From Arthrobacter alkaliphilus (GTDB taxonomy: Bacteria; Actinomycetota; Actinomycetes; Actinomycetales; Micrococcaceae): DNA of 64,000 nt. The DNA is taken from the NCBI RefSeq assembly GCF_021483235.1, contig NZ_JAKEEC010000004.1, positions 124,001 through 188,000 of the forward strand, written 5' to 3'. The notes under the pieces were generated by a model, which had not been told where the DNA came from, did not search any database, and saw only the letters and a program-made list of their open reading frames with translations. Both the position numbers and the translations under genes were made by a program. Shown here one piece after another: positions 10,177-14,224 of the stretch (position 1 is its first letter; each line of letters opens with the position of its first letter).

Positions 10177-11514
10177 ATGACAACCGCCATGCAACGTCCG
10201 CCGCTGGTCCGGAGCAGCGACCGGATGATTGCCGGTGTGTGCAGTGGCCTGGCGGACCACCTTGGCTGGCCTGTGAAGTACGTCCGGCTCGGTATGGTCC
10301 TTGCCTCGTTCGCCGGCGGGGCGGGCCTGGCCTTCTACGCGTGGCTGTGGGTCATGGTGCCCACCGCCGACGAAAGCGCCCGCCGCAATAGCCGCCGGCC
10401 GGCGTCGCCCATTGCTCCTTCGGTGAGCATGCCTCCGGAGGTAACAACGCCCGACGGCGGCGAGCGGCCGCTGCCGCTGTCCGCCCCGGCCCCCGCTTTC
10501 GCCTCCTGGTTCAGGACGCGGCCCATCCAGTACGGAAAAGAGATCCTCCTCGGAGCCGGCCTGCTCCTGGTGGCTGCAATCCTCATCGCCCGGCAGATCG
10601 GGGTGGATGTCCCGCTCGGCACGCTGATCCCCGCGGCGGCCATACTCGGTGGAGCGGCGATCGCGTGGATGCAGTTGGACGAGACGCGCCGGGCCGGGCT
10701 GGTGGACAAGACCAAAGCAGACCAGGCCGGTGGGTGGGTCCGCCTCGCCGCGGGCCTGGCCTTGGTGGTTGCCGGGGTGTTGGTCATGGTGTCCGGTTCC
10801 GGCTCGTGGGAGCAGACCTGGCTCGCGCTGTTGGCTTCGATCGCGGTGCTCGGCGGTGTGGCCCTCGTGCTGCTGCCGTGGGGCCTGAAGTTCTGGAAGG
10901 ACCTTGAAAGCGAGCGGGCAGCGCGGGTCCGGGAGACTGAGCGGGCCGAGATCGCCGCGCACCTGCACGATTCAGTGCTGCAGACGCTCGCCTTGATCCA
11001 ACGCCGGGCCGGTTCCGAGCAGGATGTGGTCCGGCTTGCCCGTGCCCAGGAGCGGGAGCTGCGCACCTGGCTGTATCGGGACGCCGCAAAGGATTCAGGG
11101 CTCCTGGCGGAGCGGATTTCCGCTGCGGCAGCCGAAGTGGAGGACGCCCACGGACACGCTGTCGACGTCGTCAGCGTCGGAGACACCGAGATGACGGACA
11201 GGCACGAGGCCCTCGTCCTGGCCGCCCGCGAGGCCATGCACAATGCTGCCCGGCATGGCGGCGGAGCTGTGTCCGTCTACCTCGAGAGCTCGGACACGGG
11301 CAGCGAGGTTTTCGTGAGGGACCGCGGACCCGGCTTTGACCCCGATACGGTCCCTGAAGACCGGCTCGGAGTCAGGGAATCGATCGTCGGACGGATGAAA
11401 CGCCACGGCGGCACTGCGGTCATCAACAGCAGTTCCGAGGGCACGGAGGTGCGACTGAGGCTGCCTGTCGAGAACGTCGATAAAGCGGAGAACCGAAACG
11501 GAGAGGCCAGATGA
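10177..11514 (+). CDS. PspC-fused sensor histidine kinase (HisKA_3 class)
   Basis: A 445-residue sensor kinase. It opens with a PspC domain (SSDRMIAGVCSGLADHLGWPVKYVRLG, then a membrane span), continues with about four more membrane helices, then the dimerisation box AEIAAHLHDSVLQTLALIQRRA with phospho-acceptor His264, and an ATPase domain with N box (AREAMHNAARHGG) and G1 box (DRGPGFDPD). With no large extracellular domain, it resembles intramembrane-sensing kinases such as LiaS. ATG 10177 is preferred to TTG 10165. Its stop overlaps the response-regulator start by four bases. The signal is probably envelope stress relayed through PspC or LiaF-like partners. Confidence 0.9.
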   Translation: MTTAMQRPPLVRSSDRMIAGVCSGLADHLGWPVKYVRLGMVLASFAGGAGLAFYAWLWVMVPTADESARRNSRRPASPIAPSVSMPPEVTTPDGGERPLPLSAPAPAFASWFRTRPIQYGKEILLGAGLLLVAAILIARQIGVDVPLGTLIPAAAILGGAAIAWMQLDETRRAGLVDKTKADQAGGWVRLAAGLALVVAGVLVMVSGSGSWEQTWLALLASIAVLGGVALVLLPWGLKFWKDLESERAARVRETERAEIAAHLHDSVLQTLALIQRRAGSEQDVVRLARAQERELRTWLYRDAAKDSGLLAERISAAAAEVEDAHGHAVDVVSVGDTEMTDRHEALVLAAREAMHNAARHGGGAVSVYLESSDTGSEVFVRDRGPGFDPDTVPEDRLGVRESIVGRMKRHGGTAVINSSSEGTEVRLRLPVENVDKAENRNGEAR

Positions 11515-12185
11515 TGAACGCCCTGTCAGAGCAAGTGGCGCGGAAGGTCCGCGTGGTGATCGTGGACGATCACGCTATTTTCCGGTCCGGGCTCAAGGCC
11601 GACCTCGATTCGAGGATCGACGTCGTGGGCGAAGCCGGAACAGTGGAACAAGCCATTGCCGTGATTGCCGAGGTGCATCCCGAGGTGGTGTTGCTCGACG
11701 TCCATTTGCCCGGCGGCCGTGGCGGTGGCGGCAGGGAGGTGATCAGCGCATCCTCGGCATTCCGCCCAGGCACGAGCTTCCTGGCCTTGAGCGTCTCGGA
11801 CGCCGCGGAAGATGTCGTGGCGGTCATTCGGGCCGGTGCCCGTGGCTATGTCACCAAGACCATTTCCGGCCCCGAGATCTCCGACGCCGTAATTCGCGTG
11901 GCCGACGGCGACGCCGTCTTCTCGCCGAGGCTGGCCGGTTTTGTCCTGGACGCGTTTGGAACCGCGCCGGCCGAGATCGCCGACGACGAGCTCGATCGTC
12001 TGTCCGCGAGGGAACTTGAAGTCATGCGCCTCATTGCCCGGGGGTACAGCTACAAGGAGGTGGCCAAAGAGCTGTTCATTTCCATCAAGACCGTGGAAAC
12101 CCATGTCTCCGCGGTACTCCGCAAGCTGCAGCTCTCCAGCCGCCACGAACTGACCAAGTGGGCCGCCGAGCGCCGCCTCCTCTGA
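11511..12185 (+). CDS. NarL/LuxR-family response regulator
   Basis: A 224-residue DNA-binding regulator and partner of the preceding kinase (ATGA overlap). The receiver domain shows the acidic pair DD at 19-20, phospho-acceptor Asp63 in VVLLDVHLPGG and the Lys of ARGYVTKTISG. The C-terminal LuxR helix-turn-helix is LSARELEVMRLIARGYSYKEVAKELFISIKTVETHVSAVLRKLQ. Two adjacent ATG codons (11511, 11514) are possible starts. Phosphorylated dimers probably bind the divergent promoter carrying CCCTGA repeats, controlling the PspC operon and themselves. Confidence 0.92.
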   Translation: MMNALSEQVARKVRVVIVDDHAIFRSGLKADLDSRIDVVGEAGTVEQAIAVIAEVHPEVVLLDVHLPGGRGGGGREVISASSAFRPGTSFLALSVSDAAEDVVAVIRAGARGYVTKTISGPEISDAVIRVADGDAVFSPRLAGFVLDAFGTAPAEIADDELDRLSARELEVMRLIARGYSYKEVAKELFISIKTVETHVSAVLRKLQLSSRHELTKWAAERRLL

Positions 12186-12994
12186 CCCCCGCTCAGATCT
12201 TCACCTCAATTCCCGAACGCCTGCTCACCTCTGGCGGCCTTAACCGAAACGCCTGCTCACCGCTGGTGGCTCAAGCCCGAACGCCCGCTCACCTGTATCC
12301 CAAGGTAAGCGGGCGTTCGCGGTGTAGGTGACCGGGCGTAGGCGGCGGGGGCGGTTTAGGTGACCGGGCGGTGGCGGCGGGGGCGGTTGATGTGACCTGG
12401 CGTTGGCCGCGCGGCAACCTCCCCGGACGCCCGGTCAGATATTCACCTCAATTGCCGGACGCCTGCTCACCTCTGGCGGCTTAAACCCAAACGCCTGCTC
12501 ACCTGTATCCCAAGGTAAGCGGGCGTTCGCGGTTTATGTGACCGGGCGTTGGCGGCGGGGGCGGTTTATGTGACCGGGCGTCAGCGGCGCGGGCCCTTTA
12601 TCTGACCGGGCGTCGGCGGCGGGGGCGGTTTATGTGACCGGGCGTTGGCGGCGGGGGCGGTTTATGTGACCGGGCGTTGGGGGGAAGGGCGGTTTAGGTG
12701 ACCGGGCGTCGGCCGTGCGGCAACCTCCCCGGACGCCCGGTCAGATATTCGCCTCATTTCCCGTACGCCTGCTCACATCTGGCGGCTTAAACCCGAACGC
12801 CCGCTCACCTGTATCCCAAGGTAAGCGGGCGTTCGCGGTTTAGGTGACCGGGCGTCGGCCGTGCGGCAACCTCCCCGGACGCCCGGTCAGATATTCGCCT
12901 CATTTCCCGAACGCCAGCTCACATCTGGCGGCTTAAACCCGAACGCCCGCTCACCTCTTTCCCAAGGTGAGCGGGCGTTCGTGCGTGTGCAGAG
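12186..12994. repeat. nested repeat block: 32-bp tandem units and palindromic units
   Basis: No gene lies here. A core TGACCGGGCG recurs at exact 32-base steps in three runs: 12329, 12361 and 12393 (third is TGACCTGGCG); 12539, 12571, 12603, 12635, 12667 and 12699; and a single 12845. The runs are separated by a larger unit (from CGGCAACCTCCCCGGACG) at about 12413, 12719 and 12863, with an older divergent copy near 12190. Each larger unit ends in a hairpin GAACGCCCGCTCACCT / AGGTAAGCGGGCGTTC. The final hairpin (12941-12980) is a perfect 16-bp stem that can terminate the aminotransferase transcript. There are no unique spacers, so it is not a CRISPR array. Confidence 0.9.
12941..12980 (-). terminator. 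hairpin downstream of the aminotransferase
   Basis: Arms 12941-12956 and 12965-12980 pair perfectly over 16 bases around an 8-base loop, 15 bases beyond the aminotransferase stop. It has no clear U-run in either direction. It is also the last hairpin of the repeat block. Confidence 0.5.
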
Positions 12995-14224
12995 CTACTT
13001 GGCCTGGCCGAGGAACTCCTGGAGGCGTCGGACCCCTTCGGCGAGGTCGTCGTCGCCCAGGGCGTAGGAGAGGCGCACGAAGCCGGAGGGGCCGAACGCC
13101 TCGCCCGGAACAATCGCCACCTCAACTTCGTCGAGGATCAGCGAGGCGAGCTCAGCGGACGTCGACGGACGGACCGGACCGTCCGACGTCGGGAATTCCT
13201 TGCCCAGCAGCCCGCGGACATCGGCGTAGACGTAGAAGGCGCCGGTCGGCGTCGGGCATTCCACACCCTCGATCGCGTTCAGTCCGGCGACGATCGCCTT
13301 GCGGCGGCGGTCGAAGGCGACCTTCATCTCGTCGACGGCGGTCAGCGGACCGGATACGGCAGCGAGGGCTGCGATCTGCATGATGTTGGAAACGTTCGAC
13401 GTCGCGTGGGACTGGAGGTTGGTGGCGGCCTTGATGACGTCAGCCGGTCCGATCATCCATCCGACGCGCCATCCGGTCATGGCATAGGTTTTGGCGACAC
13501 CGTTGAGGATGACCACCTTGTCGCCGAGTTCCGGGGCGGCAGTGGCAATCGAGGTGAAGGGGACGCCGTCGTAGGTGAGGTGCTCGTAGATTTCGTCAGT
13601 GACAACCCAGAGGCCCTTGGCCGCTGCCCATTTCCCGATCTCGGCAACCTGTTCCGGGCTGTAGACGGCGCCGGTCGGGTTCGACGGCGAGACGAACAGC
13701 AGGATCTTCGTCTTCTCCGTGACGGCTGCTTCAAGTTGCTCAACGTTCACGAGGTAGCCCTGCTCCGGACCCGCGAAAACCTCCACGGGAACGCCGCCGG
13801 CAAGGCGGATGGCTTCCGGGTAGGTGGTCCAGAAAGGCGTGGGGATGATGACCTCATCACCCGGGTCGACGAGCGTGGCGAAGGTGTTGTAGACCGCTTG
13901 CTTGCCGCCGTTCGTCACCAGGACCTGCGAGGCCTCGACCTTGTAGCCCGAGTCGCGGAAGGTCTTGTCCGCGATGGCTTGCTTGAGTTCGGGGAGGCCG
14001 GCGGCGGGGGAGTAGCGGTGGTACTTCGGTTGAGCGGCGGCCTCAACGGCGGCCTTGACGATGTAGTCGGGCGTCGGGAAGTCCGGCTCCCCGGCACCAA
14101 AGCCGATCACGGGGCGACCCGCCGCCTTGAGCGCCTTGGCCTTGGCGTCAACGGCAAGGGTCGCGGACTCGGCAATGGCGGAAATTCGCTGTGAAATGCG
14201 GGCGGCAGGTATTCCGGCAGACAT
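12995..14224 (-). CDS. aspC: pyridoxal-phosphate aminotransferase (aspartate aminotransferase type)
   Basis: A 409-residue class I/II aminotransferase that moves amino groups between aspartate (or a similar amino acid) and 2-oxoglutarate. Seen are the N-terminal substrate loop [29 protein letters not shown] with the cofactor-contacting Asn, [14 protein letters not shown] with the Asp that binds the pyridine nitrogen, and [16 protein letters not shown] containing the Schiff-base lysine (about residue 243). The usual Ser before this lysine is Ala. The C-terminal Arg lies in [15 protein letters not shown]. The exact substrate (Asp versus another amino acid) is uncertain. Confidence 0.9.

Follow-up and report, generated by a model that had tools for sequence, protein, structure and literature searches.

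The intergenic block at positions 12186-12994 of the analysed stretch of Arthrobacter alkaliphilus DNA (64,000 nucleotides, hereafter the window) is an array of one short word repeated on both strands in a 32-bp register, and is one of many such arrays found at gene ends in Arthrobacter-group soil bacteria. We consider it probable that the block, which contains no gene, belongs to a dispersed REP-like system, for which the proposed partner is a nuclease of the PD-(D/E)XK type and not a RAYT. The same word brackets relatives of this little-studied nuclease, an arrangement suggesting that the repeats spread by themselves, with a nuclease taking the place of the transposase.

Architecture of the array

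A scan allowing one mismatch located 26 words of the GTGA-NNNN-GCGT type, with variants, in the block: 12 on the minus strand and 14 on the plus strand. The features are as follows.

12186-12994, both strands: entire array of 26 words in a 32-bp register, minus and plus runs alternating
11511-12185, plus strand: LuxR-type response regulator gene (name from sequence), its stop codon abutting the array
12995-14224, minus strand: aspartate aminotransferase gene (name from sequence), its stop codon abutting the array
12217-12292, minus strand: run of three words at 12217, 12249 and 12281 (word scan)
12278-12319: first head-to-head word pair or hairpin, arms 12278-12294 and 12303-12319, 94% complementary
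12305-12403, plus strand: words at 12305, 12328, 12360 and 12392 (word scan)
12427-12502, minus strand: run of three words at 12427, 12459 and 12491 (word scan)
About 12488-12529: second head-to-head word pair or hairpin, words at 12491 and 12515 (read from the sequence)
12515-12709, plus strand: words at 12515 and, in exact 32-bp steps, six at 12538-12698 (word scan, Tandem Repeats Finder)
12733-12808, minus strand: run of three words at 12733, 12765 and 12797 (word scan)
12786-12843: third head-to-head word pair or hairpin, arms 12786-12810 and 12819-12843 (inverted-repeat listing)
12821-12855, plus strand: words at 12821 and 12844 (word scan)
12879-12954, minus strand: run of three words at 12879, 12911 and 12943 (word scan)
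12940-12981: fourth head-to-head word pair, with 17-bp arms that match perfectly and an 8-nt loop (inverted-repeat listing)

The array fills the whole intergenic space, from the stop codon of the regulator gene (12185) to that of the opposite-strand aminotransferase gene (12995), in agreement with an earlier, sequence-only reading of the window that had placed the block between convergent genes. That reading had also recognized variants of one word on either strand, as the scan bears out, and had described TGACCGGGCG as recurring at exact 32-base steps in runs of three, six and one; these copies lie on the plus strand at 12328, 12360 and 12392 (the third degenerate), at 12538-12698 and at 12844. 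Of the two spacings that it gave for a larger unit, 306 is correct, but 144 has to be replaced by 146; the two differ by 160, that is, by five 32-base steps, as it had proposed. Tandem Repeats Finder returned period 32 at 12212-12294, 12319-12411 and 12529-12713, and period 146 at 12689-12981. Eight nucleotides separate the arms of the inverted pairs at 12278-12319, 12786-12843 and 12940-12981 (among the 25 pairs listed out of 35). The minus runs of the block are an example of older word variants surviving at single loci.

A search of the block against Rfam gave four weak matches, all below the gathering scores. T-tract intrinsic terminators were sought in 11900-13300 and none was found (mean of 1.2 in shuffled sequences); the hairpins are terminator-like only by their place and stem.

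A dispersed family with a constant word and pitch

The sequence-only reading had proposed that the block might be a repeat family or, should its unit occur nowhere else, a local, inert duplication. Searches of the full genome and of relatives found the unit elsewhere, so that the first term was correct and even understated: the unit is spread across the genome and the genus. Blastn of the block against its own 4.12-Mb genome produced 61 matches (the block itself and its parts included), and the exact pair TGACCGGGCG-N22-TGACCGGGCG is found 156 times in this genome, against zero for the reversed pattern; the block is therefore beyond chance. Word pairs across the same genome number 146 (reversed control, 0), and the largest arrays hold 30 or more words. 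Array junctions could be placed at 35 positions, 6 of them at contig ends, which fits arrays breaking assemblies. Contigs C17, C28, C35, C36, C42 and C43 start or finish in or near word arrays, and array lengths in the draft assembly may therefore be underestimated. Blastn searches of plasmid and phage collections (E 0.01) found no copies of the block.

The consensus, AnGTGAnnGnGCGTY (113 units from 20 genomes), is not self-complementary and has no GTAG head. Its GTGA and GCGT letters were imposed by the search pattern and their conservation is no proof; outside these fixed letters, an A two bases 5' of GTGA reaches 0.96 and a G within the core 0.94 in the 113 units. Spacer positions carry about 0.1-0.9 bit in the same sample. 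The word is constant while the 20-nt spacers differ between arrays, being alike inside any one array, where words occur on both strands; the block had been said to have no spacers, which is true in the CRISPR sense but not literally. Many spacers resemble a hairpin of the form GGGnAAAACCC, which was rejected as a conserved RNA fold given no clear covariation (z maximum 2.6, minimum -3.0).

The pitch is exactly 32 for 253 of 286 same-orientation neighbours in the A. alkaliphilus genome (38 sources) and for 236 of 267 in 80 loci of 17 other genomes, the remaining values being mostly 31, 33 or multiples of 32. Pitches of 21, 42 and 53, which also keep the helix phase, are not among the common ones, so that the pitch acts as a ruler. 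Head-to-head distances cluster near 14-17, 25 and 35-37, but in a test for helical phasing over distinct values the vector length is only 0.40 at 10.5 and equal at 11.

Distribution among relatives and word dialects

Relatives were sampled at one genome per species. The bipartite pattern GTGANNNNGCGT-N20-GTGANNNNGCGT was detected in 83 of 395 genomes of the family, the reversed control giving one match in total. These comprise 65 of 77 genomes of the window's genus, 16 of 23 of a second genus (g38) and one genome in each of two other genera. Among 396 genomes of the phylum, only two, both of the window's genus, contain the pattern (control, one match). A stricter hairpin pattern is present in 34 of 206 genus genomes (reversed control, 0), and the exact CCGG-type pair in two of the 206, namely A. 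alkaliphilus and G045.

Genomes tend to have a main 4-base core of their own, CCGG in A. alkaliphilus and GAGA or TGGG elsewhere, such that the species can be said to use different dialects of one word. Five genomes contain 117, 52, 93, 85 and 64 copies of GTGAGAGAGCGT, another (G070) 19 and ten others 0-4; of GTGATGGGGCGT, two genomes have 60 and 37 copies and fourteen others 0-4 (reversed control, 0-2). Of 31 stretches containing the exact pair GTGACCGGGCG-N21-GTGACCGGGCG, nine are single matches from other organisms, Streptomyces, Micromonospora and others (L057, L060, L064, L066, L068, L069, L080, L081 and L083), which may be chance or coding repeats.

An ortholog of the aspartate aminotransferase gene next to the block was recovered from 205 of the 206 genomes of the genus. 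The corresponding junction was taken for 90 genomes; in 85 of them our script located the two stop codons, with the left boundary misplaced in four of these. Hairpins with arms ending AACGC...GCGTT or close variants are common at this orthologous junction. Many species have additional words there, in the local dialect and in 32-bp register, and at least four (L103, L105, L108 and L110) have the plain hairpin only. The junction measures 111 bp in ten species, 79, 143 or 175 bp in some of their kin, and 76, 78, 113, 116, 124 or 147 bp in others. This mixture indicates that 32-bp steps are frequent but that other changes occur too. Growth of the block by such steps, as previously proposed, is plausible in the light of the former lengths, against which the latter have to be set.

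Position and orientation at gene ends

With gene calls made by a simple, uncurated codon-usage script (which missed the nuclease gene described below), the distance of array edges, over A. alkaliphilus and other loci together, has a median of 17.5 bp for stop codons (n = 160) and of 125 bp for start codons (n = 70; p = 7e-13), and in 43 of 48 tandem gene pairs the array is nearer the stop. Convergent junctions make up 38 of 80 junctions with arrays against 13 of 122 array-free ones at the same loci of other genomes (p = 6e-9); for the A. alkaliphilus genome the corresponding figures are 13 of 29 and 19 of 148 (p = 2e-4). Divergent junctions also hold arrays (7 of 80 and 4 of 29). Arrays of two runs always have the minus run on the left and the plus run on the right (56 and 15 cases; the reverse was never seen), and compound arrays also occur. 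The GCGT side of the word points toward the gene at 122 of 132 array edges located within 100 bp of a stop codon, and at 23 of 31 located within 100 bp of a start codon, the latter because of the outward geometry of the arrays. Single-orientation arrays provide a fairer test: in 21 of 23, the GCGT side is turned toward the near stop. The stop codon can itself be part of the word, as TGACGC or TAACGC. When only arrays are counted, 3 of 135 overlap a predicted ORF.

Such a distribution is what would be expected from a host 3'-end element, the words of which would bind a putative host protein, or the arrays of which would serve as bidirectional terminators against read-through, with the nuclease gene as a passenger that has a preference for these junctions. 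The short distance to stop codons, the stopward GCGT side (single-orientation arrays included), the enrichment at convergent junctions, the central hairpin and the words that share a stop codon all agree with it. We nevertheless judge it unlikely: arrays are present at divergent junctions too, the GCGT side also faces genes near their starts, so that orientation partly reflects array geometry, and the block has no T-tract terminator. This explanation would moreover leave unaccounted for the different, two-sided words that distant homologs of the nuclease possess (see below).

A nuclease gene between the minus and plus runs

In five loci from five genomes, homologous open frames occupy a gap of about 1 kb between the minus and plus runs. 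A tblastn search over all loci collected to that point retrieved this gene from nine genomes, and among three places in G046 picked by a 1.03-1.08-kb gap, one proved to be a tenth copy (L289) and two were ordinary genes. The gene was found in 10 of the 19 genomes whose array loci were read, a figure that covers part of each genome's arrays, and the ten close copies come from loci selected for holding arrays. All ten have minus words upstream and plus words downstream, mostly in the local dialect; the bracketing words of L262 have drifted, and L273 is clipped by the locus end. The copy of A. alkaliphilus lies at L024:5772-6728 (G000:C23, about 206,271-207,227). Three chromosomal sites are occupied: seven genomes have the gene at the first, two at the second and G082 at the third. 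The GC3 of the gene is 0.63-0.78, against 0.79-0.86 for its L024 neighbours, and its dN/dS of 0.09-0.16 in five of the six pairs compared (the other pair was saturated) shows that it is under purifying selection.

At the G082 site, the convergent genes that flank the nuclease gene have orthologs in Arthrobacter sp. StoSoilB13 that lie 84 bp apart, with neither the gene nor the words between them; StoSoilB13 being a distant relative, insertion and loss are indistinguishable at this site. L217 was considered as another empty site and rejected, since it has no more than the downstream neighbour in common with the third site. Other genes found between minus and plus words were ordinary genes of the chromosome and a single IS3-like transposase frame; these were read as neighbours with arrays of their own. 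The transposase frame (L242:917-2507, G067) is located inside a split array and has a 33-bp self-complementary match (97%) near one end; it may simply be an IS of the usual kind that inserted into the array.

The encoded protein is about 320 aa long, with an AbiEi-type N-terminal part followed by a C-terminal DUF559/Vsr-like nuclease domain. All three close copies scanned pass the Pfam DUF559 cut-off (22.0-26.4 bits versus 20.6). Residues 13-140 match PADLOC AbiEi models (E 5e-11), and this N-terminal part is probably DNA-binding. The best PDB profile matches are both weak: 3r3p, annotated 'Mobile intron protein' (E 0.14), which we take to be a Vsr-like mobile-intron nuclease of the homing family, and 3hrl (E 0.21). 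E207, D239 and Q250-Y-D252 are invariant in nine aligned sequences; one conserved active-site position is a Q (IQYDG), and the predicted nuclease activity is therefore not certain. An AlphaFold model of the protein was unusable (pLDDT 48.6).

If the AbiEi-like part were a repressor, the words could be operators through which it controls its own gene, and the dispersed words a regulon or decoys, with the nuclease not acting as a spreader. The nature of the N-terminus and the words that lie upstream of the gene would suit such a role. Words are however found downstream of the gene as well, the dispersed arrays sit at 3' ends and not at promoters, and arrays may comprise 30 or more words; we regard this scenario as improbable.

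Distant homologs have words of their own

Distant homologs of the nuclease were chosen by protein similarity alone; eight come from records of the plasmid collection and one from a phage record, and the best place in each record was read. As a measure of bracketing, the 300 bp upstream of each gene were compared with the 300 bp downstream, and 185 genes served as controls. Flank scores were 24.5-72.5 in eight of the nine homologs; the ninth, from Nonomuraea (L320), scored 14.5 with an estimated gene start. The controls had a mean of 10.3 (sd 1.8, maximum 26.5, second 14.5), only one of the 185 reaching at least 24.5. A Tsukamurella DUF559 gene met by chance scored 34.5. The shared flanks consist of inverted pairs or tandem words, which are different for each gene. 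The ten close copies gave uneven scores: three exceed all controls, four are matched by 1-2 of the 185, and the weakest (L208, L251 and L262) by 12, 14 and 37. Short words with diverged spacers align poorly, which explains this unevenness; bracketing of the close copies rests on the words read in register. The top control score belongs to a LysR-like gene of StoSoilB13 (L313:45335-46024), perhaps a small transposon.

Proteins with at least 64% identity to the A. alkaliphilus copy share one word family, whereas those with about 29-36% identity are associated with unrelated words. Two such words, GTCGCANTTAAGCGCGTTT and GAGATGGCATTTAATGACAATCC, each adjoin their own DUF559-type paralog in a single genome, that of StoSoilB13 (L307, L309 and L310-L313). 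In 200 kb of it, GTCGCANTTAAGCGCGTTT has eight matches forming four inverted pairs at distance 29 (shuffled mean 0.67) and GAGATGGCATTTAATGACAATCC four matches forming two pairs at distance 32 (shuffled, 0); neither was found in 100 kb of a second StoSoilB13 record. The ERGS1:01 word showed no dispersal in a 150-kb sample (one chance-like match). The words of three Tsukamurella genes are absent elsewhere in 200 kb, and that of a fourth has 28 matches (shuffled mean 10.9, maximum 23). Among the seven distant homologs scanned for domains, L319 and L322 pass the DUF559 cut-off, L307, L308 and L309 fall below it, and L321 and L323 gave no nuclease match.

In L323 (Tsukamurella tyrosinosolvens plasmid 23 record), a long G-rich tandem word array (TGGGGGA...TCGGCG) flanks an AbiEi-type gene at 1321-2235. 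Some of the 'plasmid' records of Tsukamurella tyrosinosolvens NCTC13231 and Nonomuraea gerenzanensis resemble chromosomes or parts of chromosomes, as judged from an 11.85-Mb 'plasmid I' and from genes for ribosomal proteins, purine metabolism and cell division.

A plain satellite, in which slippage and unequal exchange amplify gene-end hairpins without any dedicated protein, would account for spacers that are alike within arrays, for changes in copy number and for the junctions that differ by 32. It would not be expected to keep word and pitch while spacers diverge between arrays, to produce dialects that hold genome-wide or to have one gene family nested in its arrays, and appears slightly less probable still than the operator scenario.

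Comparison with known systems

REPs are short, dispersed extragenic repeats, often organized in inverted pairs or clusters, and located mostly downstream of genes, between unidirectional or convergent genes; in REP/RAYT systems, the enzyme gene is flanked by inverted repeat copies (PMC2817692, PMC3733652). Their placement at gene ends has been ascribed to tolerance, and GTAG REPs are described as having a partner transposase while CGTC repeats lack a dedicated one (PMC3733652). The main text of the latter source contains neither 'actinobacter' nor 'Arthrobacter'. The Arthrobacter repeats resemble REPs, BIMEs and REPINs in being dispersed, extragenic, arranged in inverted pairs, downstream of genes and in bracketing an enzyme gene. 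They differ from GTAG-REP/RAYT in that the word is non-palindromic, lacks the GTAG head and has a 32-bp pitch, and in that the partner is DUF559/Vsr-like: the A. alkaliphilus genome has no match to the Y1 transposase (Y1_Tnp, PF01797), for which 5 of 14 control genomes were positive. Since two defining features were tested and are absent, the array family is not a member of GTAG-REP/RAYT, even though its organization remains REP/RAYT-like.

CRISPR arrays, with their unrelated spacers, differ from ours, where spacers are alike within an array and words lie on both strands. MITEs and BOX-type repeats are modular, with tandem central units and an inverted arrangement; neither target duplications nor DDE-transposase ends were noticed here in an unsystematic look, and the array edges abut stop codons. 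The protein resembles Vsr/DUF559 and mobile-intron nucleases (3r3p) through its C-terminal DUF559 match and weak profile match, but no intron or intein was seen with the Arthrobacter gene. It is also similar to the AbiEi antitoxin (AbiE type IV toxin-antitoxin) over residues 13-140, from which it differs by the nuclease-like domain that follows. A Caulobacter DUF559 protein has been called Vsr-like and tied to the DNA damage response (PMC12907096). In the open-licence papers searched, we found no description of such arrays or of repeat-bracketed DUF559 genes, and no link between DUF559 and dispersed repeats.

Like the DNA-uptake words (DUS) of Neisseria, the Arthrobacter words have species dialects and inverted pairs, which in Neisseria are tied to terminators (PMC3630211), but words favoured by transformation are a very improbable explanation given that our arrays seldom overlap predicted ORFs while DUS are commonly intragenic, and that 32-bp arrays and a bracketing nuclease do not figure in the description of DUS (PMC3630211).

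Proposed mechanism and implications

Overall, what the sequence-only reading had observed is confirmed and its interpretation partly supported; the species dialects, the fixed gene-end geometry and the array-bracketed nuclease gene had escaped it. Its 'protein-binding array' is compatible with our data and likely, albeit putative, and nothing speaks specifically for its 'chromosome-organising element'.

The REP-like system that we favour could operate as follows. Its unit is the non-palindromic word A-N-GTGA-NNNN-GCGT-Y, set in outward minus and plus runs, many of which join in a hairpin resembling a terminator. The nuclease protein would bind the words, and because 32 bp correspond to about three turns, these would be presented on about the same helix face. 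Nicking or cutting by the protein at an array might then be repaired from the sister or from another array, so that copy number would shift in 32-bp steps and arrays would be converted to the current word variant, leaving one main dialect per genome. Repair might also occasionally move the nuclease gene to another convergent junction. Arrays may survive at gene ends because they do the least harm there, or because the head-to-head pair can act as a terminator, and both may hold.

More tentatively, and at somewhat less than even chances, the arrays may belong to a wider, selfish actinobacterial system in which AbiEi-DUF559 nucleases, each with a cognate word, would spread inverted words and arrays across the genome of the host by targeted cutting and repair without any transposase, and in which shifts of specificity would convert arrays and thereby create the dialects. 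If true, this would constitute a second, unrelated route of bacterial repeat spread beside the REP transposases. It would give a testable function to proteins so far named just 'DUF559' or 'AbiEi domain-containing', and would make it possible to trace the concerted evolution of a repeat across some two hundred sequenced species at a single orthologous junction.
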